This document shows positions 5,110-62,727 of a stretch of DNA of 64,000 bases, piece after piece. Source of the stretch: Eucommia ulmoides (Eukaryota > Streptophyta > Magnoliopsida > Garryales > Eucommiaceae). A program made the position numbers and the translations under genes. Under the pieces are notes generated by a model, which did not search any database, had not been told where the DNA came from, and saw only the letters and a list, made by a program, of their open reading frames with translations. How positions within the stretch are numbered: position 1 is the stretch's first letter; the number at the start of each line of letters is the position of its first letter. The stretch covers positions 41,804,546 through 41,868,545 of the forward strand of contig CM028326.1 of assembly GCA_016647705.1 (NCBI GenBank), written 5' to 3'.

Positions 5110-8100
5110 TGTTAACCACTCGAAAGTTGAATGGGAATACTTATCTTCAGTGGGCCAATGCTATCAAAATAGCCCTCACTGGACAAGGAAAACATCGTCA
5201 TCTCACTGACTCTCCTGCTTCGTAGGGTACCAAGAATACTGAAGGGTGCACCCAACTAGATGCTCAAATTTGGTCTCAGTGATGGAACTCTATGGAAGCT
5301 TAGATTGCAAAAGTGTAGCCATGTGGAGACCTACATAGAGTTGTGAGAGTTTGTTCGGTTGTGATTTGCGAACAATCTTACTCGGATGTATAATGACTCG
5401 GCCAAGAATTTTCACATCCAGCATGATACACAGACGGTCACTAAGTATTTTTCCATGTTTAAGTAACTTTACGAGGAGATGAATGTCCTTCTCCCAAAAT
5501 ATCCACCAATGTTACATCTATACGAAAGCACCGGGAAGAGATGGTTGTCCTAAAATTTCTTGCCGGTCTTCGCCCAAAATTCGAGCCTATTCGCTCTTAG
5601 ATCTTTGGAGGGGCTACTCACCCTTTATTCGCCGAGACATACTCACAGGTTCAAGGTGCAACTACTCGAGAAACTATCTACCCTCCAGTCTTTCTTTGGT
5701 CGATCGTTCAGCTCTGGTTACACAAATCTCTCAAGGCAATCACACTGACCAGCCTAGTGGTGGTCGCCATGGTCACTCTCAAGGTAGTGATAGTGGTGGC
5801 CCTTCAGGTGGCCGAGGTGGTCGCAATGGTGGCCAACTTCGTCAATGCTCCTTTTTAAGCAAGGAAAATCATACCAGAGAGAATTGTAGGAATTTAGTTG
5901 GCCAACCTCCTAAGTATGCTCATCTTGTGACATCTAATCAGGCTGATCCTATTCCACCGTCTACTCTTCAACTTCCAGGGATATCTCTGATGATGAGTAT
6001 GTTCAGTTCCTTCAGTTTTAGGCCTCGCAGCAGACATCTACCTTCATTGCTTCTCTAGCTCAACAAGGTACCTCTACTACATGTCTTTCTTTTCATCTTT
6101 CCCCCTCTACACCAAGGGTTATAAACTCTGCTGCCACTGACCACATGCCAGGTACCTCTTTCCTATTTACAGACACATTGTCTCCTGTTACTGTTGTTGA
6201 TGGTTCCACAGTCTCTATTCGTGGAACCCTCACCCTCCTCTTCCTTATCCTCTAGTTTGTAATTTTTTTATTTTTTATTTTTAATTTAATGTCAGTTAGT
6301 AAGCTTATTAAACATCTTAATTGCTTTATTTCTTTTTTTGCTAATTCTGTCATTATCCAGGATTTGAGGACGCGGAAGACAATTGGCACAGTCGTGAGGC
6401 AAATAGCCTTTATTACTTTGACGATCATGACGAGAGTCCTACTATCCCACCCATTGCATATCTTGTTGTTGCGTCTTCTCATCAAATTCATTGTCGCTAA
6501 GCTCATCCATGCCTTGCAAATCTCAAGATGCTTGTCTCCAACTTACGTTATTTGTCTTTCTTATATTGTGAGTTTTGTCAGTTAGGTAAGTATTATAGTA
6601 GTTCATTTGCTTCCTCGACTCATGTTCGAGCATTAAGTCTTTTTAGTTTAGTTTATTCAAATGTTTGGTGTCTTTCTCATGTTGATTCTACATTAGGATT
6701 TTCATTATTTGTCATGTTTATAAATGATTTTTCAAGAGTTATGTGATTTTATTTAATGAAAGATCGTTCTGAATTATTTCCCCTTTTTTTTGATTTTTGT
6801 GCTAAAATTAAAAATCAATTTAATGTAGCAGTGTGTACACTTTGAAGTGATAATGTTTGCGAATATTATCTCAGCCCTTTACTTCCTTCATGTCAAACTC
6901 TAGCATCCTGCATCAGTCCTCTTGACTCACACACTGAAGCAAAATGACGTAACTGAGCGTAAAAATCTACATCTCTTGAAAGTGGCTCGTATTCTTACTT
7001 TTTGAGATGAATGTTCCCAAATACTTTTGGGGTGATACAGTTCTTACAACTTACTTCTTAATCAATAAGATGTTGTCTTCTACCATAAATGGCAAGGTTC
7101 TCCATTCTCTTTTTTTTTTCTTGTTCCCCCTTGTTTGGTTTACCTCCTCGTATATTTGGCTATGTTTGTTTCGTTCATCAATTAACTCCTAGGAAGGACA
7201 AGTTGGATCTCCGTGGCTTAAATGTATCTTCCTCGGTTATTCTCGTACACAGAAGGGTTATTATTGTTATAGTCCATCTTTATGTCGCTCATTTGTGTGT
7301 GCAAATGTTACATTCTTTGAGTCCATTCCTTAATTTTCTAAGCTCTACTCTTAGGGTGCTCTGAATGTTACACTTCCTTTGTCCAATTTTCCAACCCACT
7401 ACTCTATCTTCCTCCCCTCCAGAACCCGTCCCGCCCAGTAGTTCTCTGCCTCCTTTGCGGGCATACTCTCGTCGCCCGAAGGTTGCTTCTGCCACTGTGT
7501 CCATCGTCCTTGTGTCCTTAGATTCTTCTCCAGTTCATTCAATCACTTCTAATTTCGACATGACCATTACTGTCCGAAAGGGTAAGCGCTCATATACTGA
7601 CCAACCATCCTATTTGTAACTTTGTCTCATATGCACACTTACCTATCTCCGTCATACTCTTCGTTTGTTGCTTCTTTGTCCTCTATCTCTCTTCCTAACT
7701 TTGGTTCAAAGGCTCTATCTTATGCTGGTTGAACTATTGCAATAGAAGAAGAAATGCTAGCCTTAAATCAAAATGGTACTTGGGACCTCATCTCGCTTCC
7801 ACCTGATAGAACAGTAGTTGGATGTAAAATAGGTGCATGCAAAGTTCATCCAGATGGCACCATTGATCGACTCAAAACACGTTTAATTGCCAAAGATTAT
7901 ACTCATGTATACGGTCTTGATTACTCCGAGACTTTTTTCTCTCGTTGCCAAGCTCGCTTCTGTTCGCTTTTCATCTCTCATGTTTCCACCTTTTGTTGAC
8001 CGTTAAATCAGCTTGACATCAAGAATGCCTTCTTAAATTGTGATCTCGCTGAGGAAGTATACATGAAGCAAACTCTTGGGTTTGTCACAAAAGGAGGAGT

Positions 8101-10000
8101 TTGGTTTAGTATGTCGCTTAAAAAAATCCATTTATGGCCTCAAGTAGTCTCCTCGAGCATGATTTAGGATATTCAGTGACGTGGTCACCATGCTTGGTAT
8201 TTGTGTTGTGGAGTCAATCATTCAGTGTTCTACAAGTATAATACAATAGGAAGAATATTGTTAATTGTGTATGCGAATGACATCGTAATTACCGAAGACG
8301 ACCACAGTGGTATTCAAGAACTCAAAAAAGTTTTGCATAGTAAGTTTCAAACCAAAAATTTGGGCTAGTTTAAGTATTTCTTGGGAATTGAAGTTACTCA
8401 ATCGAGTCAAAGTATTTACCTATCTCAAAGGAAATATGTCCTTAATCTATTGAGCGAAAGAGAAATGTTAGGAGCTAAACCGATTGACTCACCTATAGAT
8501 CCCAACACAAAACTCTTGGCAAATTAATGAGTACCACTGACAAATCCAACGCAATACAGACGGTTAGTTGGGAAGTTAAACTACTCAACTATAAGGAGAC
8601 CGGATATCCTTTGTTGTTAATGTTATCAATCCGTTCATGGATCATCCCACAATTTGTCACTGGGATACAATGATTCGTATCCTCAAATATCTGAAACATG
8701 CTCCTGGTTGTGCTTTGTATGATGAGGGTATTTTTAGGCGTCACCGAGTTAAAACCAGGGCCCCAGCCACGTGTCTACCATCGTCGTGACGTGGCCACAT
8801 TTAGAAATCCAAAGCGCCATGCAGGAGCATACGCCGACCAAGGTTTCTTCCTTGTAATCTCTTTTGCACTTAGGGAGGAGCACTGTGTCATGCAGGGACA
8901 ACGTCGCCTAGAACTTTGTGCCACGACTCTAGGCAACCAACTTCAGGGACTTAGCTGTTTGTCTCAATCGGCACACTATTTAAGACTGTTTCTTCTCCAA
9001 GACTCCACGAATCTCCGATTTCCTCAACCGGGACTTCTCCACAGGCTTGACAGATGCCCGCAGGCTTTTCCAAACGAGCCCAAACCCGGTGATTATCTCC
9101 TAAATGCCCTGGATTATCGGCTAAACATATGGTTTCGCCTAATTAACCGTGTTTAGGCCCGATTAAGCAAAACTAATCATCTCCAACGCCTATAAATATC
9201 AAGGGCTATACAAGCCCGAGGTAACCCTAACGCTCAAACGCTATTTACATATTTGACACGTTTCTATACTTTTTCTCTCTGAGCTCTTATTTTCACACTA
9301 GAGGGGCTTCGCCGAGACAAATCCCAGCTCAACCTTGTGCAGGTACAGTTCCCTGAAGGGTGGGACTCTAGATTTCAGCAAGTCAGTCTCCCAGGACGAC
9401 AGTTACAACTCATTAGAAGAATTTCCAACTCCATTTCAGCAAAAGGACTCACCTGTCACCTGACTGGACTATACTCAAGGTGTTGACCACTTTGGGACAC
9501 CAACATTGTACACTCAAATAAAAAGGATATACAGATGAAGATTAGGCTGAATCACCCTCGGATCGCAAGTCTACTATAGGATATTTTGTGTTTGTTGGAT
9601 GTAATCTTGTCTGTTGGAAGAGTAGAAAGCAGATAATGGTGGCCCGGTCAAGTGCAGAATCGGAATATAAGGCGATGACCAATACCACTTGTGAGCTAAC
9701 TTGGTTAAAACATTTGTTGGAAAAACTTAGATATGAACACTTTTCACCTATGGACCTAATATGTAATAATCAAGTGACACTCCACATTGCATCCAACTCA
9801 GTCTTCCGTGAGAGAACAAAACACATTGAAGTTAATTCACCTTATTCGAGAAAAATTGTTGCAGAAGTTGATTGAGAATAAACATTTAAATTCAGTTAAG
9901 CAGTTAGCGGATTCATTTACTAAACCGTTAGGGGGCTCAAGGATAAAGTACATTTGTAACAAACTAGGAGCATATAGTATATACTCCAGCTTGAGGGGGG
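5110..10000 (+). pseudogene. copia gag-pol polyprotein remnant, interrupted by a solo LTR
   Basis: Gag begins near 5110 (RKLNGNTYLQWANAIKIAL). A glycine-rich gag tail and damaged zinc knuckle are at 5740-5900, a protease remnant near 6125 (SAATDHMPGTSFLF), an HHCC/integrase stretch at 6528-6746 (CEFCQLGKYY, FINDFSRVM), and reverse transcriptase from 7754 (NGTWDLISLPPDRT). The polymerase motif near 8265 is YANDI instead of YVDD. RNase H at 9588-9875 shows ARSSAESEYKAM, and the tail ends ADSFTKPLGG. Frame breaks and the lost YVDD motif mean the product cannot work. The insertion at 8720-9505 separates reverse transcriptase from RNase H. Confidence 0.9.
8720..9505. mobile_element. solo LTR A (Tat/gypsy-like family)
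   Basis: A 786-bp segment starting TGATGAGGG and ending CACCAACA is flanked by TTGTA at 8715-8719 and 9506-9510, a clean 5-bp TSD. A second copy of the same sequence is at 45262-46067 with its own TSD, which fixes both boundaries. It contains a core-promoter-like CCTATAAATATCAAGGGC. The terminal GACACCAACA resembles the LTR end of the Tat-lineage element at 51778. With no internal region present, it is read as the product of LTR-LTR recombination. Its insertion splits the copia element, so it is younger than that element. Confidence 0.9.
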
Positions 10001-10334: not shown

Positions 10335-12045
10335 CCATTTTCAACCCTCTAACTCTTGAATTATTGACCAATTTTTATGTGATCCAATACGTTTGGTGCA
10401 TTTTACTTTAAACCCCGTATATTTAATTACAGTTTTAATTAGTCCTTTCATCTGATATAGGTCTTACATTAGACAGAATAGAAGGTAAATTTGTAAATTT
10501 ATATATTTTTTATTTTTGTTTTTTATACTTTTTTGTTGTTGTTTTTATACTTTTTCTTTTCCTTTTTTTTTTTTTTTTTAATTTATTTTTTTCTAATTCT
10601 TTTTTCTTTTTTCTTCACCCATTCTCTTCCCACCTCTAGCCCCTATCTTCGGCCACTACCACCTCCAACCAACACCAGCGCCACTATTACCTCCACCCAA
10701 CACCAGCGCCACCACCTCCTCTTTTGTTCCTCATCCTTCATAATTGCTCAATCATCCATTAATTTTTCTTCAGAAACAGATTTCTCTTGCTTTGCCAACT
10801 CCTCTGTTTCGTGCCAAACCTATGTCACTTACCGTGCTCGACCACCTCAATACACAAACCTCAAAAACATATCAAAGTTGTTTAAAATTAGCCCTGTCGA
10901 TGTCGCAAATGCCAACTTACTCTCTGGCAAAGCAACTCTATTCCTAACCAGCTTTTACTCAATACCCAACACATGTTCTTACAACGGCTCACTCTATTTT
11001 TCTAACATGACTTATGAAATAAAGAAGGGTGTCAGTTTTTAACTCATTCCGAATCATTTTCAAAATTTAACGAATTACATCTTATTCTGAAGTTGAACCC
11101 TAGTCTCGAATCGTAAAAATTAAAGATTGGTGTGGAGGTTGTGTTTCGGTTGTTCTGTAAATGCCCAAAATCAAATCACTCCGACAAGGGTTCCGACAAA
11201 GGGGCTAGGTATCTTATTACCTACGTATGGGAGCTGGGACATCATGCCAGTGAGTAATCTGTTTGGGGCCTCGTCATATGATGTTGTTTTCGACAACAAT
11301 AACCAGAATTTAAGTGTCTCGATTTGTCTTCCGGTGGTAATTTCAGTGACCCATTTGCCGATTCTCAATCAATCTCACCCTTCTCTCTCCACTTCCAAAA
11401 AACATAACCCAAAAACCTGGTGGGTCCTTATAGCTGCACTTGGCATACCCATTTTCGTTGCAATTTTGTCTGGTTTTCAATATATACCCATTTTTCAAAC
11501 AAGAAAAATAAAACACTTTTGCGAAATGGGTCGTATCTGGACACGTGATCTTATTCAGATAAAAAAATCATCGGAAAAACGAGATTTAGAGCTCAAGACA
11601 ATGTCTGTTCAGTACAAGCTTCTTCCCGGAGTTTCAGGCTATTTAGGACCTGTTCAGTACAAGCTTCTTCCCGGAGTTTCAGGCTATTTAGGAAACCCTG
11701 TTACCTACGACACAAAAGTGATCATGGAAGCAACCGTGAATCTCAACAAATGCTATAGGATCGGTGGAGGTAGTAACTTGGGGAGGAGGTGTTGACTCAG
11801 TGAAGAGAAAGAAAAAAGAAGAAAGAAACAAAAAAAGAAGAAAGAAGAAAGAACAAAAAAACAAATAATAATAAAAATAAAATATATAAATTTACAAATT
11901 TACTCCCTATTTTGTCTAACTTCACAGTTAAATTAGATGGAAGGACTAATTAAAACCGCAATTAAAGATGCAAGATTCAAATTGGAATGCACCAAACTTA
12001 TCGGATCACAGAGAAATTGGTCCATAGTCAGAGGGTAGTCAATGG
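10335..12045. mobile_element. TIR element (Pack-MULE-like) carrying a LysM receptor kinase fragment
   Basis: About 165 bp at 10335-10505 matches the reverse complement of about 11875-12045, including GTGCATT/AATGCAC, GATCCAATA/TATCGGATC and the run around TTTGTAAATTTATAT. The inverted repeats enclose a captured gene fragment (10730-11795). Long TIRs around host gene sequence are typical of Pack-MULEs. I could not find a convincing 8-11-bp TSD, so the superfamily call is an inference and the ends may be off by a few bases. No transposase is present. Confidence 0.7.
10730..11795 (+). pseudogene. captured LysM receptor-like kinase fragment (LYK4/LYK5-like)
   Basis: The first part (10730-11042) reads like a LysM-RLK ectodomain, with CQTYVTYRA, KLFKISPVDVANANLL and YFSNMTYEIKKG. 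After a frameshift, 11127-11795 continues with LPTYGSWD, a third LysM-like stretch (FGASSYDV), IPVTQLP-like text, a membrane segment (WWVLIAALGIPIFVAIL) and the juxtamembrane YKLLPGVSGYLG. It stops at YRIGG, where the kinase domain should start. Intact family members are membrane receptors for chitin-type oligosaccharides with a weak kinase domain. This copy lacks the kinase, is frameshifted, and has a 45-bp in-frame tandem duplication at about 11606-11695. The surrounding TIRs suggest transposon capture. Confidence 0.75.
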
Positions 12046-13085: not shown

Positions 13086-16000
13086 CTAAAGAAATTAAAA
13101 AAAAAAAAAAACTGTTAACCCAGTAGAAAGGAAAAGGAAAATCCTTTTCAATCAAAGAGTAACAGCTACATCACCAGAGCCTCAGCATCATCCAATCCAG
13201 CTCTGATTTCAGATATTTTCTGTTTCTTCTGCTCTGAAAATGATATTTGAAGCAGCAGGGGTCAGAAACCATACTGAAGGAATAGAAAGTAGCTCTGAGA
13301 AAATCAAAGAAAGGAAGAAAAAAAAATCGCATAAACATAGCCTAGACTGAACAGCAAAGATCAAATATACAAGTTAATAGAGCACAGATTCCTTGGCCAC
13401 CACATTCAGATGTTCTTTCAGATTTTTTCTCGGTCTTTCTGCTAGTTGGACACTTCAACAAAGATCCCAATATCCAAATGATAGTGAAACTCTATTTGAT
13501 TCAATGATATGATAGATAGAGGAAAATATAAAGGGAAAAAAATGAGATTGCACTAACAATAACAGTCAATGTCAGTAATCAAAAGCTTTCAACAGACGCA
13601 CAAAAAAAGATAGGCTGCAAAACCAGTTCAAACAAAAAGTAGAAATTTGATTCAATAAGTAGTAAAGAGAATACGAGGAGAGAAATCATAATAACAGTCA
13701 AAAGAATATGTGAAGACGACATCAACGTGCTTCTGAAAATCAACAAAAATTATAACAGTGATATGCTAACCAACTTCTTGCAATGCAACGGATAAAAAAT
13801 TAAATGGAACAAAAAAAAAAAAAGCAAAGAAAAAATATGAAATGCTAATTAGGATGGATGAAATGCTAATTAGGATGGATCAGCTTTCTTCTTTCTCTTC
13901 TTATTCTTTTCATTCTTTTTACTTCTCTTTCCTTTTTCTGATGTACTGTCAGTATGTACTCATGCTTCAGGTGTGATGCAGTCCACAAGTTTAACTTCCT
14001 CCTTTATCTTCCGTACAGGCTTAAAGATTTTGGTAATTCTGGGATCCAACACATCACTTGAACACTGTAGAGAGATACTCATAACTGTTGCCTCATCCCA
14101 AAGCTCTCTTGCCTTTTCAAACTCTCCTCCTCTACAAAGCTTTGATATAAGCAAATCATATAGTGGTCCATAACCACCTAATGAGCTTTTCTTCATTAGT
14201 TCAAATAACTCGAGAGCATAATTCACTCTTTCAACGCCACACAAAACCCCAATTAAATCATAATAAAATTTACGCTCTGGAGCCAACCCTTCTTCGATCA
14301 TCATATCAACTATTTGCTTACCTTTGCCGAATCTCCCTGTCAAATACAGTACTCTTGCAACAAGATAATAGCTTACCCAATCAGGAGAGCAGCCTGATCT
14401 TTTCATTGCGTCAAGAATTCGAATACATTCTTTGACTCTTCTAGCCCTACCAAGACAAGAAAGCAATATATTGTAACTGATAGATGTTGGCAAAATTCCG
14501 TAGGTCCTCATTTCCATGTATACATTTAAAGCTTCAGGAACAAGACCGGAAGGGTTCGATTTGAGATTTTGCTCACAGAGGCACCTGAGGAATGTGTTGA
14601 AGCAATAAAGGTCTGGTGTCCTTCCAGCTGACTTCATCTCTTTGATAGTTTTGCGAGCTTCCTTCACATTCTCTTGCACAGACCACCCATAGAGAAGACT
14701 CCTATAGATGCAAGTCTCTGAACCAGAAATCTTATCCTGATGGTGCCAGACAACACCTTGAGCTCTCTTTGCATGCCCTTTTGCACAAAGGGCACTAACA
14801 ATGGCCCTGATGGTAAATCCATTTTGAGGGCACTTGAACTTGTCCAAGTTCTTGAAAATTCCCAAAGCTTCATCAACTCTCCCGAGCTTAACCAGTGTCT
14901 CAGCCACAACACTAAAAGTCCATGTCTCCATTCCTCGGCCAACTTTAACAAGATCTGACATCAAAACGTCCACTGCCATGCAGTCCTTCTTCTCAGCAAA
15001 CACTCTAATCGCATGATTAAAATCCTCATCTCCCAATTCACAACCTAAACTCCTTTGAGACCACAAAAAGAATCTTAGTAGTCTTCTTGTGGCTGCTTCA
15101 CCTTTGCAAGAATCAAGCACCTGCTTGACAAGGGTCGATGTAAGAGGCACTTTTAACTTATTAAGACACACTTCCAAGTCATCTAAGCCGCCAATGCTAC
15201 TTGAAACCAATTGACATAGCTCCGGAAATTCTGGTGCAGGGGTTGATGGTACATTGGAGTGAAAAGAAATTAAAATATGTCTCTGCTTCCAGGCATTGAT
15301 GCTTTTCAGTAACAAACTTTGGCATCTGGGAAGCAGCATCTTCTTCAGAATAACTTATGCTCCATGTACAACTGGGATCAGTAGAAACGTGTTCCCTCAG
15401 GAAATTAATGAAACAATGTGCTGGAAACTACTTTGAAAATATGGTTGATAAAGATTTTTACATGTGAAAACAAAATAGAAACTTGGAAATAAGAAACCCA
15501 TTCGATCACGTATTAAAAGAAAATGAACAAAAAAAACTGCTGCCAAGTCTAGCATTCTTAGAAGCATGTGGGGGGACAGGGGCATCAACGTCTAAAAAGT
15601 TTAGGTTTAAATTTTGGAGCGCCTAGAAGCACATGAACTTTTTTTGGAAATATATGATGTACTTGATAAACAATAATGTATTTGGGGTGAAATAAAACAT
15701 TTGATAGTATGTTTTAGTTTTTAAGAAATTCCATTACATATTTTCCTATGCAGAATATTTCTTTTGCTGAACATTTTAGTGCAAGATATTTTAAGATTTG
15801 ATGGTGATAAGAATGAGATCAGGTGTCGCATTCTCAATAAGAACCACACTGTCGTCTAAGCACGAAAGTTTAGAAAATGTCACGGGTCCATGTCTATGTC
15901 CTTCACACCATTTTTTGAGTTTCTAATTAGAAATTAAACATCATATGTTTAGGCATGCATCCAACACTTTTTATTCAACTTATGCTACACTCTTTCTTCA

Positions 16001-26525: not shown

Positions 26526-27150
26526 TGATACCGTTTTAAAATTAAAACAGTATGTTGGAAAGGAATTTCTAATGGATAAGTAATCATCACCACTAAAAAA
26601 AATCCTTGGAATAGTTAAGTTCGCCACTTCAAGGATAAGAATATCAACACCTTAAAAATAACGATTGTAATTTAGCTTACCACTCAGTGAAATCCTCCAA
26701 AGAGATAAGAAATTAAGATAAATAATCACAAAGATTAACTTTTGAAATCTGAAATTGATCAATCTCCTTTTCGTAATTACCTTGTTTTATACTTGGAACA
26801 ACCCTCTAAGAAAAGGAATAGTCATAATTAATGTTCCAAGACCTTACAAAAAGCAATACATATCATAAACAACATTTTTTGACTTCTTTGACTACTAATA
26901 ATGGTTGAATAACCAAATTCAAAGTATTTAATTAACTTAACGACATCTTGAAATACTAAAAAGAGCTAATAACCAAATTCAATGTTTATAATTGACCAAC
27001 TGACTTGTTGAAAGGTTATACCAAATAAGGGGCTGGTCAAAAATGAAATTTGGGGCCCAAATATCTTCATGGACCATTAAACCAAGATGGTTGGGTTTCT
27101 TTAGGTTCAAATTAGCATAACTCTTATTGGATTTGGGCTCAAATGTGTCA
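26526..27150 (-). repeat. 3' LTR of the Ty3/gypsy element
   Basis: 625 bp; partner of 34931-35559. The end of the pol frame (chromointegrase tail) runs close to it. Confidence 0.93.
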
Positions 27151-28513
27151 TTTTCCCTTGGTTGGAAAGGACTCGTCCTCGAGTCAAGTGGCTTATCATC
27201 TTGGTATGGAGAAAGATCCGAAACATTAAAAGTTGCGGAAACTCCATAGTCACCAGGAAGCTCTACCTTGTATGCATTATCATTAATCTGTTGAACAATT
27301 TTGAAAGGACCATCAACTCTAGGTTGAAGTTTAGCAAACTTTTTGTTTAAAACCTTTCCTTCCTTAAATGAATCCATACCAAATATTATTTATTAAACAC
27401 AACTTTCTTTCTGTGCTTATCAGCTTGCTTCTTATACTTTTCAGTTTTCTTCAAGATCTTGTTTCTCAGTTATTCATGAATTATCTTGATGAATTTGGCT
27501 ATTTCATTAGCTTTCCTACTAAAATGATTATCAATATGAATAGGAGATAAATCCAAAGGGCCAATAGGATTCATATCATAAACTACTTCAAAAGGAGAAT
27601 AACCAGTAGTTTGACTTGTAGAACGGTTATAAGCAAACTCGACATGAGGAAGTAAGCTCTCCCATTCTCTAACATTCTTCTTCACCAAGCTTCTAATCAT
27701 AGCTCCCAAAGATCTGTTAACAACCTCAGTTTGTCCATCCGTTTGTGGGTGGTGAGATGAACTAAATTGAAGCTTAGTTCCCAACTTCTTCCAAAGAGTT
27801 CTCCAAAAATGACTTAGGAACTTCAAATCTCGGTCAGAAGTGATTGACTTTGGAATGCCATGAAGTTTAACAATTTCTTTGAAGTAGAGGTCAACAACAT
27901 TAGTAGCATCCGAAGTTTTGTTGGAGGGAGCAAAATGAACCATTTTAGAGAATTTATCTACTACTACCATAATTGAATCTTTACCTCTTTGAGTTCTTGG
28001 CAAACCCACAACAAAGTCCATGATAGCTTTGGTGCTGTTGGAATTGGAAGATGAGTATATAAGCCGACATTGGTCCCATATATCTTAGCTTTGTGGCAAG
28101 TAACACATCTCTTCACAATCTTCTCAATATCTTGCACAAGCTTAGGCTAATAGAAGTTTTCTTGCACCATGATCAAAGTTTTGTCTCGGCCAAAGTGTCT
28201 AGCAAGCCCTCCACCATGAGCCTCTCGAATTATGGCTTCTCTAAGTAAACACTTTGGTATACAAAGCTGTTTACCCCTGAAAAGATAACCATCATGGATA
28301 AAGAATTGGTTATTTGGTCCACTTAAACAAGTTTTCTTAAGATTGCCAAAGTCAGAATTATCTTCATAAAGGGTTTTAATAACCTCGAAACCAATCACCA
28401 CAAATTGCATAGTGTTCAACAAAGAATGTATCTTACTCAATGCATCAACCACCTTATTCAATTGCCTAGACTTATGTTTAAGAACAAATTGAAAAGTTTG
28501 AAGGAATTCTACT

Positions 28514-30888: not shown

Positions 30889-32665
30889 CTACCCATTTTG
30901 CATGTCGTACACTTAGCTTGTGTTGAGTGCTTAAATATTTTAATGCTTCATAATATGAATAAAGCACAAACTCCTTTGGTAGTAAGTAATGACTCCAATG
31001 ACTAAGAGCTCGAATTATTACATAGAACTCCTTGTTATATGTTGAATACTTCATCTTTGCATCGTTCAACTTCTTACTGAAAAAAGCAATGGGTCTTCCT
31101 TCTTGGCTAAGAACAACTCCAACTCCCACATTAGAGGCATCACAATCAACTTCAGATACTTTGCTGATATCAGGAAGTGTTAGAACCGGAGTTGTGGTCA
31201 TCTTCTTCTTGATAAGATCAAAGCTTTCTTAGGCCTCCTTAGTCCAACTGAAAGTTCCTCCTTTCATGCATTCAGTGATGGGAGCCACAACATTATTTAA
31301 ATTCTTGATGAACCACCTATAGAAAGAAACCATACCATGGAAACTTCTTATATCATGAATGGATTTAGGAACTGGCCAACTTTCTATAGCTTCTACCTTG
31401 GTAGGATCCATCTTGATTCCTGCACTAGACACCATATAGCCCAAGAAAACAAGGTTATCCGTAAACAAGTGACATTTTTGCAAGTTAGCAAAACGTTTTT
31501 CGCTCCCTCAAGGTTTAAAATACACTCCTCAGATGCTCCACATGTTCCTGCAAAGATTTACTATAGACCAGAATATCATCAAAATAAACAACAACAAACG
31601 TTCCCAATAAGGGTGTAAGAATATGTGTCATGAGCCTCATAAAAGTACTTGGTACATTTGAGAGACCAAATGGCATTACAAGCCATTCATAAAGCCCTTT
31701 CCCGATTTTGAAAGCCGTCCTCCATTCATTTCCTTTTCTAATTCTGATTTGGTGGTATCCACTTCGAAGATCAATCTTGAAAAACACTTCAACTCCATGA
31801 AGTTGATCAAGTAAATCATCCAGCCTTGGAATGGGAAACTGATACTTGATAGTGATCTTATTGATGGCTCTACTATTAACACACACGCACTATGTTCCAT
31901 CCTTCTTTGGAACCAAAAAAGTCGAAACAACACACGGACTCATGCTTTCACGAATCAAGCCTCGAGCAATAAGTTCATCCACTTGCATTTGTAACTCAGC
32001 TTGTTGCATTGGATTCATTCGACAAGCAGCCTTGTTTGGTAGTGAAGAACATGGAATAAGATCAATGTGATGTTGAATATTCATAATTAGTGGTAAACCA
32101 ATTGAAATCTCATCCGGTACCATATCTTTGAACTCCTTCAATAGTAGCAACAATAGCTCATGAAATGATGCTTGTTGAGTGATTGTAGCATCCATAACCA
32201 AGAGAGCATAAATCTCATCTTGATTAATCAAAGTACGCTCTAGTTGTATACTTGTTAAAAAGCAATTCCCAATCTCCTTAGAATGTTTCAATTCTGGTTT
32301 CAATGGAGCGAGAACAATGTGAACACCATCTTTGACAAAAGAATAAGTATTTTTAAAGCCATCATGAGAAACCTTCCGGTTATACTGCCATGGTCTTCTA
32401 AGTAACAAATGGCATGCATCCATTGGTACAACATCACACCAAACTTCATTTTTGTAAGTTTTCCCAATAGAAAAAGACACCAAGCATTTATTTGTAACTT
32501 TCAAACCACTGCCCTTTTGGAACCATTGGATCTTGTATGGTTGAGGATGGGGCTTGGTTTTCAAATTCAACTTAGTCACCATTTCTTCGACCACCACATT
32601 TGTACAGCTTCCACTATCAATAATCACATTACTAACCTTCCCATGACTAGTGCACCTTGTTTGAA

Positions 32666-33728
32666 GGGAAAAGTACGATTTAGACCCTCTAACTATTGAC
32701 ACATTTCTAAGTGGTCCCTCTAAGTTTAAACGTTTCATTTTAAACCCTCTACGTATCTAACGTTTCAAATTCGTCCCTCCGTCAGAGATTCCGTTAAAAC
32801 TAACAGAATCTCAGGGGCAAAATGGTCATTTCACATTTTTAAAAATCTTTTAATCATTTTTAATTAATTTTTTTTTAATTTTTTTTTCTTCCTCTCTCTC
32901 TTCCTCCCCTTCCTCTCTCTCTCTCCCGCCACCTCCCTCTCCCTCTTCCTCCCCTTCCCCTCTCTCCTTCCCACCCCACCCCTGCAACAGAGGGTGAAAA
33001 CACCCCCGGTTGCAGGGGGTAGAATCACCCCCTGCAACAGGGGTAGCGCCACCCCCTGTTGCCGGGGAGGGTGGAATCATCCCCTGAAACAGGGAGTGTT
33101 TTCACTCCCCGTTGCAGGGGGTGGTTCCACCCCTCCTGAAACAGGGGTGGAATCACCCCCTGCAACAAGGGTGGCACCACCCCCTGTTGCAGGGGGTGGT
33201 GCCACCCCCTGCAACAGGGGGTGAGTTCACCCCTATTGTAAGGGGTGGAATCACCCCCTGAAACAGGGGGTGTTTTTACCCCATGTTGCAGGGGGTGGTT
33301 CCACCCCCCTGAAACAGGGGGCGTAACCACCCCCTGTTGCAGGGCGTGATTCCACCCCCTGTTTCAGGGGGTGCAACCACCCCCTGCAACAGGGGGTGGA
33401 GTGGGAGGGAGAGAGGGGAAGAGGAGGAAGAGGGAGAGAGAGAGGGAGGTGGCGGGAAAAGGGAAGGAGGGAGAGGGATGTGGCGGGAGAGAGAGAGGGA
33501 GGAAGGGGAGGAAGAGAGAGAAGAAGAAATTTTTTTTTAATTAAAAATGATTAAAAAATGTGAAATGACCATTTTGCCCCTGAGATTCTGTTAGTTTTAA
33601 CGGAATCTCTGACGGAGGGACGAATTTGAAACGTTAGATACGTAGAGGGTTTAAAATGAAACCTTTAAACTTAGAGGGACCACTTAGAAATATGTCAATA
33701 GTTAGAGGGTCTAAATCGTACTTTTTCC
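32666..33728. mobile_element. hairpin (foldback) MULE with palindromic minisatellite core
   Basis: TIRs of about 190 bp (32666-32860 and 33540-33728) differ at only about three positions over the 175 bp I compared. The 9-bp TSD TTGTTTGAA (32657-32665) / TTATTTGAA (33729-33737) has one mismatch. Inside the TIRs the left side is CT-rich and the right side GA-rich, so these pair too, and the core is a self-complementary minisatellite. The whole 1063 bp can fold as one long hairpin. No transposase gene; it must have been mobilised in trans. It cut the gypsy protease and is one of the youngest insertions here. Confidence 0.9.
32980..33405. repeat. palindromic GC-rich minisatellite
   Basis: About 14 diverged units of roughly 27-30 bp built from CACCCCCTG, TTGCA or AAACA, and CAGGGGGTG with short spacers such as GTGCCA or GAATCA. 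Each unit contains its own inverted repeat (CACCCCCTGTTGCAGGGGGTG). The ORFs that run through it on both strands (VAGG/PLLQG repeats) follow from the repeat length and are not genes. Confidence 0.85.
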
Positions 33729-34930
33729 TTATTTGAAAGATGTTGTCTCGCAGCCACGACTCTTTATTCTCTTGAATCAGATTAAGACTTCTCCAAATCA
33801 CCAAATCTTCCCTTTCATCGACATATTCGATGATTTCTTCCACACTCCCTTCTTCTTGGTTTAATTCTACCTCATCTTTATCAATCCCTTCCTCAACGAT
33901 GGTCACCACCTTTCAGTTTGGACAATCAAAAGCTATATGCCATAAGCTTGACATTTAAAACACTTACGGGTAGAATTGGAATCGTTTGATGTTCTTTGAA
34001 CAGTACCTCCATCTCCTTTGACTTCATTCTTGCTAGAAGTTGCACCTTTGACAAGAGGTTTGTTGGAACTAGAAGTAACACTCCCCTAGTTAGAAGAACT
34101 TGCTTTAGGAATTGTTTTTGGAGAATACTTCATTCATTACTGTACAATGGTGATAGCAAGCTTTCTAACATCATTAAAAGTCCAAAACGGTTGTAGCTGA
34201 ATTGCATCTGAAAGCTCCATTTTCAATCCTCCCAAGAACCATGCAATAGTTTACTCCTCTAGTTCATTAATATCACACCTAAGCATTAAATACGGAAATT
34301 CCCTTATATACTCTTCCACGGGTAGATTGTATTGCTTAAAATTATAGACATCAGTATAATTTTCTTGTCTATAATTTTCAGAAAGAAATCTCCTCTTTAA
34401 TTCATGTTTCATTTTCTCCTAAGTTTGAATAGGCCTTATCCCTTCTCTATTCCTCTCATTTTTTAGATTTTCCCACAAAAGTGAAGCACAACCCTTCAGT
34501 TTAATAGCCACTAATTTCATATTCCTTTCCTCTGAAAACTCCTTAAATTCAAAAATTCTTTCAACAGTGAATACCCAATCTAAAAAAGCATCACCTTGTA
34601 TTTTTCCATCAAATTCTAGAACTTCAACCTTCACATCTCCATCACGTGGCCTTGGCTTCCTTCTTTGCCATTGGTTGTTATGATCTTAATCACTAGAATC
34701 ATCATCAATAGCAAGGGGATTCTGATATTCCATTTCCCCGTGCGCTTCACGTTGGTTTATTCTAGGTTGGGCATTGTTTTGTTGCTGTTCTACTTTTCTT
34801 TGCAGCAACTCAACCGTCCTCCTTAGCTCTGCAATCTCCAAGTCATGTTCATAGTCCTTCACAACTTGAAAATCTTGAGGAATAGGATTTCCATGTATGG
34901 CCATCCTCGAACCAAAGCTCTTATACCAAA

Positions 34931-35559
34931 TAATACCATTTTAAATTAAAACAATATATTGTAAAGAAATTTCTAATGGATAAGTAATCACCACCACTAA
35001 AAAAATTCCTTGGGATAGTTAAGTTTGCCACTTCAAGGATAAGAATATCACCACCTTAAAGATAAGAACTGTAATTTAGCTCACCACTCAATGAAATCCT
35101 CCAAAGAGATAAGAAACTAAGAAAGGTAATCACAAAGATTAGCTTTTGAAATTTGAAATTGATCAATCTCCTTTAATTTTCGTAATTCCTTTGTTTTATA
35201 CTTGGAACAACCCTCTAAGAATAGGAATAGTCATAATTAATGTTTCAAGTCCTTACAAAAAGCAATACATATCATAAACAACATTTTTTGACTTCGTTGA
35301 CTACTAATAATGGCTGAATAACCAAATTCAAAGTATCTAATTAACTTAAAGACTTCTTAAAATACTAAAAATAGCTAATGACCAGATTCAATGCTTCTAA
35401 TTGACTAACTGACTTATTGAAAGGTTATACCAAATAAAGGGCTGGTAAAAAACGAAATTTGGGGCCCAAATATCTTCATGGACCATTAAACCAAGATGGT
35501 TGGGTTCCTTTAGGTTCAAATTGGCATAACCCTATTTGGAATTGGGCTCAAATGTGTCA
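34931..35559 (-). repeat. 5' LTR of the Ty3/gypsy element
   Basis: 629 bp; the inner end is next to the PBS at about 34916-34927. Its terminal TG has become TA. Confidence 0.93.
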
Positions 35560-37693
35560 CTGCGTTGGTCGAGAGATGGCGTCAAGAGACACACACGTTT
35601 CGTCTTCCGACTAGAGAGATGACGATGACACTACAGGACATAGTACTGTTATTCGGGTTGTCCGTGAATGGGCGAGCAGTTACCGCCCATGAGGGTATGA
35701 GACCGATCTCACGTTGGCAAGAACTTTTCCATGACCTCCTCGGCCATACACCACCAAAGGACAAAATCAAGTGCGGTGGCCTGAATTTGAAATGGCTACA
35801 GACCACTTTTGCTCGTGTACCTGCTGACGTTGATGGGCACATTATGCAGTGTTACACCCATACGTACTGCTTGATATTGATCGACACAGCATTGATGCCG
35901 GATAAATGGAGTAATTTAATCAAGTTAGGCTACACACCACTGCTCAGCGACTTGACTGGGTCACAAACGTATAATTGAGGTACTTCCACGCTAGTAGTGT
36001 TTTACTGGGAACTATGTAAGACATTGCGTAGAGAGACAAAAAAGATGGTCAGACCACTCTTTTTGTTACAGTGTTGGGCTTGGGGGTGGCTCTCGAGACT
36101 ACATCATGTGTCTCTATCTACGACGGCTGATGGGATGGGTGACCTAGAGATCGGGGACTTTAGGTTCCCAGGCGCCCTTAGGGGATCTCAGTACAATATT
36201 ATATAATTAATTTGTACGTATTTCAAATATTTCATTTCATTTAGTAATATTTAGTTTTGGTATTCGCATACAACTAGAACGTGTCTTTTAATTTGGATAG
36301 TGAGTCGATGCATGTATTGGTTGTGTATCGGGATCAGTTAGATGGTTTACGGGATGACGATGTCAGTTATAGATTTATGTAAGATATTGCTTATGTTTAT
36401 TTACTTACGTTTATATTTATTATTTAATTAATTTATTTGTTTATTTTTCGAACGGGTGATTTAGATGCCTTATTTGACCGATCTCTTGGAGGAATTACCC
36501 TCATACTGTAGAGATGGACAAGTCATATGGATGGCATTTGTTCCTCTTATTTTCTACGAAATCATGGAGTACCATTATCCCCATCGTACACTACGACAGT
36601 TCGAATTTCGCCAAGGGATTGCCCGGCTAAGTGACACATACAAGGACTTGCGTTTGATTAGTCGAAGAGGAAAATTTGGTACAGACTGGTAGACAGTGCA
36701 CGCGAGACATATACGGGCGTGGGATACTCGGCGACCACCTGATTTGAGTAATTTTCAGGTTAGGACAGAGGTCCTTGATGATTACATGCCTTGGTACGAG
36801 AAAGGTCACCAGAAGGTTTATAGTGAACCCGTTTTATCGACCGAACTTTGGCTACCATGTAGTAGGAGGTCGTTTGACGATAGAGGTAGGATTTAATTAG
36901 AACATATGTTTGTTAATTTGTATTGCTATTAATGTTCATTTACTTAGGTGTAATCAACTTTATTTTTCAGGAACCAGATATTTCACTATTGTTGTGTCTG
37001 AGAGAGCTTGCCTTACAAAAATGAAACACCCATGAAACACAAATGAGGCTTTACTATTAACGCGTGACACATGTTCCTAGGCCTTGTACTGGAAGTTGCA
37101 TACCAGATACTGGGTGACGTTGCTTCGAGGCCGGAGCGCATACCAAATCTACCGTTGGAGCCGTCTTCCTGGTTTGTCGTAAACATGGATAATGGCATGT
37201 ACCGCTCAGGTGAGGTAGTGATGAAGGACGCCACTGTCGGACCATCTACTTATGGGATGAACGATTTCTATTCAGAGTTTGGCGCCGACCTGGGTGTCAA
37301 TTGTGGACCGCACTGGGTGACATATTTGTCACCCCAATGATGGAGCATCCATCAATGAGCTCAACACCCATTCCTAGTGTGACATGTGGGGTACCCACTG
37401 GAATTCAAAGACACATGTCGCCGGTCCCTTGGTAGTTGGATAACGAACATGCGTTGCTGATCGTGAAGGAACCGTCGTATCCATCTACCATGGATTTGGG
37501 GAACGTAACTTAAGTCGATCATACATAGTAGATAAGATGGAGGAACTTCTACTTTCTTGTGGTGGCAACGAAAAAACATTAAACGTTGGGGGTACAGTAT
37601 ATAGAAATCAATGATATGTATTATAATTTGTACAAATGTATATAATTTAATATGTACATTATTTAATAACTTATGGAGTTCTTTAGAACTTTC

Positions 37694-54520: not shown

Positions 54521-54574
54521 ATGGCTGGATCACCACATAGTCTCGCATTTGCCCCTGTGAAAGCTCAATTTTAG
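54521..54574 (+). promoter_or_regulatory. 17-codon upstream ORF in the XXT5-like leader
   Basis: ATG in a strong context (CGCCATGG), encoding MAGSPHSLAFAPVKAQF then TAG, ends 44 bases before the main ATG at 54619. Its presence in the transcript depends on where transcription starts, but the CT-rich tract just before it (54486-54500) is typical of plant leaders. It would be expected to reduce main-frame translation. Confidence 0.5.
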
Positions 54575-54618
54575 AAGTAGACGGAGCGGAACTCAATTTC
54601 TTGCAATTGGGTTGGTTG

Positions 54619-55977
54619 ATGGGTCAAGAAAATTTCACAGCATTGAAGAGAGCCGGCGGTGGGGCTCTTCCGACAACCGCCTACCCAAATGGCGTCGTTC
54701 GAAGCCGCACGTCTTCTTCAATCACCCGAGGCCGTCAGATCCACAGGACCTTCAACAACATAAAGATCACAATTCTTTGTGGCTTCGTCACCATACTCGT
54801 CCTCCGCGGCACCATCGGCCTCGGCAACCTCGTCTCTTCCGCGGCAGATGCCGAAAACCAGAACCTTATCGAAGAGACCAATCGCATCCTCGCCGAGATC
54901 CGGTCCGACAAGGACCCCGACGACCCGGAAGAAATCTCCGAACCCGAATTCAACCCGAACATCACCTACACTTTAGGACCGAAGATCCCTAACTGGGACG
55001 AAGAGCGAAAGCTGTGGCTCCATCGCAACCCAGAATTCCCCACCTACATCAACGGTAAAGCCCGAATCCTTCTTGTTACTGGATCTCCTCCAAACCCCTG
55101 CGATAACCCAATTGGGGATCATTACTTATTGAAAGCTATCAAGAACAAAATTGATTATTGTAGGTTACACGGGATCGAAATTGTTTACAACATGGCCCAT
55201 TTGGACAAAGAGTTAGCTGGGTATTGGGCCAAATTGCCACTGATTAGGAGATTAATGTTATCACATCCTGAATTGGAGTGGATTTGGTGGATGGACAGTG
55301 ATGCTTTGTTTACAGACATGGTCTTTGAACTTCCATTATCAAAGTATGATAACTACAATCTGGTTGTCCATGGCTACCCAGATTTGCTGTTCAACCAGAA
55401 ATCCTGGATTGCTCTGAATACTGGGAGCTTCTTGTTTAGAAACTGTCAATGGTCTTTGGATTTGTTAGATGCTTGGGCACCAATGGGACCGAAGGGTCCT
55501 ATTCGTGATGAAGCTGGGAAGATCTTGACCGCTAATCTAAAGGGGAGGCCTGCATTTGAGGCAGATGATCAATCTGCATTGATATACTTGTTGATTTCAC
55601 AGGAGGAGTGGATGAAGAAAGTTTTTCTTGAAAATTCTTATTATCTACACGGATATTGGGCTGGATTGGTGGATCGATATGAGGAAATGATGGAGAAGTA
55701 TCACCCGGGATTGGGTGATGAGAGATGGCCATTTGTGACCCATTTCGTCGGATGTAAGCCTTGTGGGAGCTATGGGGATTATTCGGTGGAGAGATGCTTG
55801 AAAAGCATGGAGAGAGCGTTCAATTTTGCGGATAATCAGGTGTTGAAATTATACGGTTTTAGGCACAAGGGCTTGTTGAGTCCTAAGATAAAGAGGACCA
55901 GGAATGAGAGTGTTGCGCCTTTGGAGTTTGTAGATCAGTTTGATATTCGGCATGGAGTTCATGGAACCATTGGATGA
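54619..55977 (+). CDS. XXT5: xyloglucan 6-xylosyltransferase, XXT5-like (GT34)
   Basis: XXT enzymes transfer xylose from UDP-xylose to the glucan backbone of xyloglucan in the Golgi. This intact, intronless 452-residue ORF has the type II layout. A short cytosolic tail ([20 protein letters not shown]) and a signal anchor at about residues 49-68 ([16 protein letters not shown]) come first. A stem ([20 protein letters not shown]) follows, then the GT34 domain from about residue 125. Conserved pieces are [20 protein letters not shown], the metal-binding D226-S-D228 in [44 protein letters not shown] and [15 protein letters not shown]. The N-terminus and stem fit the XXT5 subgroup better than XXT1/2. 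I chose ATG at 54619 because the family starts MGQ; an in-frame TTG at 54601 is not a plausible start. Confidence 0.95.
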
Positions 55978-62688: not shown

Positions 62689-62716
<28 letters not shown>

Positions 62717-62727
62717 CGGGGCGGGGG
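62689..62727. repeat. poly-G tract (G28 plus CGGGGCGGGGG)
   Basis: 28 consecutive G on the plus strand, then a short G-rich tail, in otherwise AT-rich sequence. Confidence 0.95.

Follow-up and report, generated by a model that had tools for sequence, protein, structure and literature searches.

A foldback, probably Mutator-like, transposon family in Eucommia ulmoides with a variable array of palindromic units in its core

Mutator-like elements (MULEs) have long terminal inverted repeats (TIRs) and 9-bp target-site duplications (TSDs), the TSDs of other plant superfamilies usually being 2–8 bp, and MITEs are short (under about 800 bp), non-coding, high-copy elements with TIRs and a TSD. Pack-MULEs carry a captured host gene or genomic fragment between their TIRs, and the foldback transposons FARE (Arabidopsis), Tnr8 (rice) and FB (Drosophila) have long inverted repeats that are internally repetitive. 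How Mutator-like elements capture host DNA and how internal repeats grow in foldback transposons are open mechanistic questions.

Published criteria for MULEs are TIRs of about 100 bp or more that are at least 80% alike, with a TSD of 9–11 bp containing up to two mismatches (PMC3310237). Foldback MULEs of Medicago truncatula, called MuTAnT, are described as having 218 copies, a 9-nt TSD and (TA)n targets (PMC4486113), and a Mutator/Foldback family, Tm1, is reported from root-knot nematodes (PMC3169594). The Drosophila foldback elements Galileo (PMC3573991) and Tetris (PMC4079207) contain internal tandem repeats, and MITEs with internal satellite or microsatellite repeats are recorded in a review (PMC9659126). 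In maize, the Mutator-derived inverted duplication Mu killer is proposed to yield hairpin RNA and siRNAs (PMC3440606).

The window analysed here is a 64,000-nt stretch of an E. ulmoides genome assembly (contig CM028326.1). As the original prediction had stated, it holds an element of 1063 bp with near-identical inverted ends at positions 32666–33728, the presence of which was confirmed far above chance (Table 1). The two ends are identical at 172 of 175 positions. The TIR of about 190 bp first proposed does align over 191 nt at 96%, but that length includes 2 bp of flank and a drift into AT-rich sequence, and the near-identical part is 175 bp. The terminal 20-mer AAAGTACGATTTAGACCCTC was found at two places in the window with up to three mismatches allowed (0 in shuffles), both of them exact and corresponding to the two ends of the element in opposite orientation. 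By eye, the TIR at 32666–32785 resembles a series of about four degenerate repeats of 30 bp that share a (g)tccctc/accctc motif, and a 21-bp repeat pair at a spacing of 30 lies within it.

The CT-rich and GA-rich arms pair with one another, as predicted, to a degree that exceeds composition (local score 111, reached by 0 of 2000 shuffles, maximum 80). Complementarity extends into the outermost core units at both ends, 39 of 48 columns being matched between 32950–32996 and the reverse complement of 33378–33424 (score 47; maximum 13 in 2000 shuffles). Coding capacity is small, the longest stop-free stretch in the 1063 bp being 118 aa, and no host-gene or genomic fragment was found between the TIRs of this copy, the interior of which is accounted for by arms and units. 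No Rfam family reached its gathering score in the window, and the terminal 20-mer had no match in viral contigs. A G-quadruplex had been suggested for the core, but a scan of the core found no canonical motif (G4Hunter mean −0.08) and its G and C runs alternate; there is instead one canonical motif in each arm, on the minus strand of the CT arm (start 32925) and the plus strand of the GA arm (start 33444).

Table 1. Coordinates of the element, its insertion site and the host retrotransposon within the window
Feature	Position	Strand	Basis or remark
Host retrotransposon LTR	26528..27150	-	91.2% identical to 34933-35559 over 628 columns
Integrase-core (rve) ORF of host retrotransposon	27473-28084	-	Pfam
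Retrotransposon reading frame cut by element	31890..32756	-	ORF scan, flank translations
Left target-site duplication TTGTTTGAA	32657..32665	.	8/9 identical to 33729-33737
Left terminal inverted repeat, 175 bp	32666..32840	+	172/175 identical to reverse complement of 33554-33728
AT-rich linker, left	32841..32887	+	Sequence; end-to-end match breaks up here
CT-rich sub-terminal arm	32888..32975	+	85/88 C or T
Core, 17 palindromic units of ~25 bp each	32976..33402	.	TRF, unit pattern (up to 3 mismatches), phase splitting
GA-rich sub-terminal arm	33403..33525	+	118/123 A or G
AT-rich linker, right	33526..33553	+	Sequence
Right terminal inverted repeat, 175 bp	33554..33728	-	Pairs with 32666-32840, ungapped, 3 mismatches
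Right target-site duplication TTATTTGAA	33729..33737	.	8/9 identical to 32657-32665
Host retrotransposon, other LTR	34933..35559	-	91.2% identical to 26528-27150

As the element lies inside an LTR retrotransposon, it inserted secondarily, after the retrotransposon was in place. From its features we take the host to be of the Ty3/gypsy type, and the reading frame cut by the element, which had no Pfam match at 0.001, is a protease-like stretch that presumably belongs to the Ty3/gypsy protease region. When 69 and 63 bp of flank were joined, one of the three minus-strand frames was open across the insertion site. The match between the two TSD copies can be extended to 10 of 11 bp. At 1.7%, TIR divergence in the window copy is below the median of 4.6% for the 45 complete copies described below, which places it among the less diverged copies, but it is not demonstrably recent. 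The original prediction had called the element young; host LTRs that differ by about 9% and a TSD with one mismatch give no support for a very young element.

Elsewhere in the window, a 2.6-kb inverted repeat (14–2517 and 5807–8362, 73.8% identity), one arm of which includes an ORF (857–1228) with a retroviral-polymerase SH3-like domain, probably consists of the remnants of two retrotransposons with opposite orientations. At 10497–11795 (+) there are ORFs whose LysM domains are of the NFP/LYK receptor type (Pfam LysM1_NFP_LYK, LysM3_NFP), and this region includes a perfect 45-bp tandem duplication (11605–11693). Other ORFs encode pentatricopeptide repeats (PPR; 13960–15354, −), a plant mobile domain (35514–35978, +, beginning at the LTR edge) and Glyco_transf_34 (54541–55977, +). 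The LysM, PPR and plant mobile domains are of plant type. An almost uninterrupted 39-nt G tract at 62689–62727 is a possible weak spot in the local assembly or sequencing.

Within the core, the unit CACCCCCTGNNNCAGGGGGTG was found at 15 places with up to three mismatches, against 0.03 expected. About 14 units had been predicted; phase splitting, with two further units added by eye, gave 17, and TRF reported 16.8 copies of 25 bp. Each unit consists of the 21-bp CACCCCCTG-NNN-CAGGGGGTG and a spacer of about 4 bp, and the proposal that the element is palindromic at two scales, within the unit and across its whole length, is supported. The loop trinucleotide marks the orientation of a unit, being mainly CAA, AAA or TAA in orientation P and the reverse complements TTG, TTT or TTA in orientation Q. 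In the window copy the orientations read PQPQPQPPQPQPQPQQP, a string that starts with P, also finishes with P and contains 15 runs, which 440 of 100,000 shuffles reach. Units 1–7 and 8–14 have an identical series of seven loop trinucleotides, as in a higher-order repeat. This recurrence was seen in 3 of 100,000 full shuffles and in 1248 of 100,000 that kept the P/Q order, and given the latter it is only moderately surprising.

Other copies were sought, as had been proposed with the original prediction, in the whole genome of 947 Mb (391 contigs, with C1–C17 each of 43–80 Mb). With up to two mismatches the terminal 20-mer gave 764 + 761 matches (1,525), against 4 + 7 for a backward control, and the exact core palindrome was found at 718 places (control, 0). 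Among 100 terminus matches listed, 29 pairs face each other at distances of 661–1206 bp (median 867). Examination of 63 loci gave 45 distinct complete copies, or 44 when L022, a segmental duplicate of L021 that was kept in the analysis of TIR distances, was dropped; loci with no TIR pair (L044, L045 and a single place recorded as both L005 and L041) were left out before the counts. The sample included 40 places that were the best of 2317 candidate matches to the window's own TIR and are biased towards it, such that the zero distance of the window's left TIR from the majority is partly circular. Another 15 loci were reached via the exact core pattern, which favours copies with a perfect unit, five had both TIR inner ends among the matches listed, four were chosen because their arrays or lengths were short or long and two for a common insert.

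Perfect 9-bp TSDs were present in 34 of the 44 copies, perfect TSDs of 8 or 10 bp in three, TSDs with one mismatch in five, including the window copy, and none in two, in a search that allowed end shifts of up to two bases and lengths of 8–11 and that favours matches in A+T-rich flanks; 359 of 381 TSD bases were A or T. The copies are 564–1242 bp long and contain 0–17 units (median 6.5), as counted in this non-random sample with a fuzzy pattern (up to four errors) that can miss decayed units, and the distribution is no unbiased estimate for the genome. Length and unit number are correlated (0.89), and the highest unit number among the 44 is that of the window copy. The original prediction had taken the element as a single odd case, but it belongs to a large foldback family of non-autonomous copies in which the palindromic core occurs family-wide and the number of units varies. 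GC-rich palindromic arrays are difficult to sequence, and the length or sequence of the core could in principle be an assembly artefact. We regard such an error as highly improbable because the same core architecture recurs across chromosomes in dozens of copies, the units of which differ both among themselves and between copies; L067, a copy added later for its length, likewise has 17 units.

Array similarity was not correlated with TIR distance over 703 copy pairs (Spearman −0.056, p 0.14), and the possibility that array content tracks TIR relatedness was rejected. A local signal of relatedness was seen in four copies (L026, L040, L060 and L061) with TIR distances of 0.9–1.4% and 7, 5, 6 and 6 units, respectively, which hold all four of the rare CTA loops counted. 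One explanation for the core is that its units are internal transposase-binding repeats with a copy number tuned for mobility. Accounts of Galileo provide a precedent, tandem repeats in TIRs having been proposed as secondary binding sites (PMC3573991), and MULEs with tandem TIRs are described as better amplified (PMC3310237). Yet the array does not follow the TIRs, copies in which none, one or two units were counted carry perfect TSDs (for example L007, L006, L030 and L031) and a repeat listing of the window gave no repeat family common to the core and the TIR, all of which make a binding function for the units quite unlikely.

Among the new features of this family are that units occur in both orientations, that neighbours are opposite beyond chance and that the unit next to the arm has a preferred orientation. 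Across 48 copies, 161 of 246 adjacent pairs were in opposite orientation, a count that none of 5000 shuffles reached (mean 131.5, sd 7.2), and 109 of 187 pairs of units two apart had the same orientation (mean 88.8 in shuffles, of which 4 of 5000 did as well); with the window copy excluded the counts were 147 of 230 and 98 of 172, respectively. Neighbouring units were more similar as reverse complements than directly (0.836 versus 0.779), and units two apart were more similar directly (0.826 versus 0.797). The outermost units pointed in the expected direction (P...Q) at 54 of 64 ends in the 32 copies with at least four units (shuffle mean 31.7, 0 of 5000). Of the 40 copies with at least two units, P comes first in 35, Q comes last in 29 and both hold in 26. 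The exceptions to these rules were 10 of the 64 array ends and 85 of the 246 neighbour pairs.

Genome-wide, the exact junction of arm and CAA was found 190 times and that of arm and TTG 33 times. At least four of the 33 lie 14 bp from an arm-CAA match on the opposite strand (for example C5:28486990 and 28487004, and C8:10959515 and 10959529) when compared with the 100 of 190 arm-CAA matches listed, and this spacing indicates single-unit copies, which must read TTG from one side. Two copies with two units (L065 and L066) have the structure arm-CAA-4 bp-TTG-arm, that is P-spacer-Q only, with perfect complementarity over 32 bp on either side of the 4-bp spacer. As the apex is palindromic in copies with one and two units, the array resembles a hairpin tip that has expanded, which is the simplest reading of the orientation data. 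Even and odd unit numbers were equally frequent in the 44 copies (22 each, no excess), and a mirror order of the inner part of the arrays was not above chance (52 versus 48.3; 1237 of 5000 shuffles).

The same 348-bp insert was found within the palindromic array of three copies, L032, L068 and L069, with identities to the L068 insert of 94.8% for L032 and 95.4% for L069. The target sites of L032 and L068 differ, and each of these two copies has its own perfect 9-bp TSD. The three copies have 10, 7 and 12 units, respectively, split across the insert as 3+7, 3+4 and 7+5, and such different numbers around a common insert indicate that unit number changed after capture. The insert matched four places in the genome, and the fourth, L070, contains the full segment at 96%, and the 1.6 kb examined there held neither a TIR match nor a unit. 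This suggests that L070 is the likely donor locus, or it may conceivably be the remnant of a family copy. A captured segment inside a foldback element looks like a Pack-MULE-like event.

The possibility that the palindromic units are kept by selection for a hairpin, as a source of dsRNA or for protein binding, and not by mutation alone was considered using folding and covariation. The predicted RNA fold of the whole element has an energy of −838 kcal/mol for the plus strand and −855 kcal/mol for the minus strand, whereas 20 dinucleotide shuffles of each averaged −375 and −371, respectively. This agrees with the hairpin potential originally proposed; any transcript could form a long dsRNA, and silencing through siRNAs is plausible. 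Of the 1908 arm pairs in 212 units without indels, 1687 were Watson-Crick and 221 were not. The fold of the window core was weaker when all units were set to P (−303.1 kcal/mol) or to Q (−336.3) than as observed (−344.3), and mixed orientations therefore help. Set against this, random orientations folded equally well (mean −344.5, 29 of 60 as low as observed) and random unit orders nearly so (mean −339.1, 12 of 60), such that the mixed array folds better but its particular order is not special. The observed orientation series was rejected as a fold-stabilising design. Covariation was not beyond chance in the 212 units (2 compensatory cells versus 4.5 expected, reached by 475 of 500 shuffles) or in the 17 units of the window copy (2 changes on both sides versus 1.4 in shuffles, 195 of 500), in which 84.9% of cells pair compared with 84.5% in shuffles. 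Furthermore, L007, a copy with no units, has a perfect TSD, indicating that the units are unneeded for insertion or were lost afterwards. Selection for the hairpin is thus an unlikely explanation, and with no covariation and random orientations folding equally the array is read mainly as a mutational product.

We put a probability of roughly 0.78 on the reading that the element is a non-autonomous foldback MULE-type transposon of a large family, with a core that is the expanded apex of an element-wide hairpin and units that are a mutational by-product. Such an element would be moved in trans by a MURA-type transposase recognising the TIRs. The CT and GA arms, which continue into the outermost units of the array, would make the core the apex of the hairpin, and during copying or repair a polymerase may slip or switch strand at this palindromic tip. 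Slippage and strand switching could add units in the same and in inverted orientation, giving an excess of opposite neighbours, and switching may occasionally stitch in host DNA. The small palindromes would then be a by-product of unit addition rather than a selected structure. From the orientation statistics we infer inverted template switching at the apex; slippage of an already inverted 50-bp dimer is an alternative that would also give alternation, though the unit counts have no parity excess. In other systems, replication errors are described as giving rise to small inverted triplications (PMC13334657), and a connection with the present family may be suggested. A more tentative proposal is that the apex is a self-generating module in which strand switching adds units (P to PQP) and the same switching captures host DNA. 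If so, the arrays would be a natural record of hairpin-driven replication errors.

The placement among MULEs agrees with the foldback MULE-type element originally predicted. It draws on the long TIRs, on a TSD matching at 8 of 9 bp in the window copy and perfect at 9 bp in most others, and on the multicopy, dispersed state of the family. Inverted repeats make up most of the element, which folds on itself, and internal tandem repeats vary in number from copy to copy, as in foldback elements. Most definitions of a MITE would exclude the window copy because of its length. In a search for MULE domains 150 of 2936 candidate places were scored, and none of 77 MULE-domain places from C1–C8 was within 36 kb of the 100 terminus matches listed, of 1,525, which makes this a weak test. 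One intact MULE frame, L064, had no match to the TIRs of the element in the surrounding 7 kb, and no ends of its own were recognised there. As no transposase-bearing relative was found in these searches, membership of the MULEs is argued from the TIRs and TSDs. The family could belong to another TIR superfamily, or the element could be a composite of two, as the lack of a linked transposase would allow. However, TIRs of about 175 bp with perfect 9-bp TSDs fit MULEs, and the same ends and TSD length recur across 44 copies, making either origin very unlikely. Many of the MULE-domain places had an equal score (E 9.5e-16) and a 757-aa open frame without stops, and these recurring frames hint that there may be a recently active autonomous MULE family in the genome.

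The family provides many parallel cases in one genome, in which the same hairpin carries a marked unit in differing numbers and orientations, and three copies with one common capture are available together with a candidate donor locus. Template switching at a hairpin apex becomes testable by unit counts in relatives. The family is also a candidate for asking whether long hairpin transposons feed siRNA silencing.

Four exact strings from the TIR and core did not occur in the library of open-licence papers searched, and no description of such a core was found among the papers listed there; a catalogued family name may exist elsewhere, for example in Repbase. From the published accounts available, MuTAnT, Tm1, Galileo and Tetris are the closest relatives in kind. 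MuTAnT, as described, is likewise a multicopy plant foldback MULE with short, non-autonomous hairpin copies and a 9-nt TSD, but in the element described the 144-bp TIRs nearly abut within 292 bp and the family targets (TA)n (PMC4486113). The present family has CT and GA arms, with palindromic units in varying number at the apex, and its TSDs are A+T-rich. Tm1 shares composite inverted repeats, a variable number of short motifs, a 9-bp TSD and non-autonomous copies, but its motifs are given as 13–15 bp within each TIR (PMC3169594), compared with self-palindromic 25-bp units lying between the arms in both orientations. The number of internal repeats also varies in Galileo subfamily F (PMC3573991). 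The repeats of Galileo and Tetris are about 210–220 bp and within the TIRs, and the excerpted accounts do not mention a palindrome at the scale of the unit (PMC3573991, PMC4079207).

The MITEs with internal tandem repeats are, like the present element, small, non-autonomous and bounded by TIRs, but the examples in the excerpted review are from other superfamilies or unassigned and no palindromic apex is mentioned for them (PMC9659126). Mu killer is comparable as a Mutator-type inverted duplication with hairpin RNA potential, but is described as a rearranged autonomous copy with transposase sequence (PMC3440606), and the 1063-bp element has no such ORF. FARE, Tnr8 and FB resemble the present family as foldback transposons whose long inverted repeats are internally repetitive. 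Three copies of the family, though not the window copy, share with Pack-MULEs apparently captured host DNA between the TIRs, but the capture sits within the palindromic array, unlike in Pack-MULEs. The best reading is that the element is of a known kind, a foldback MULE, with an unusual and mutable palindromic tip.
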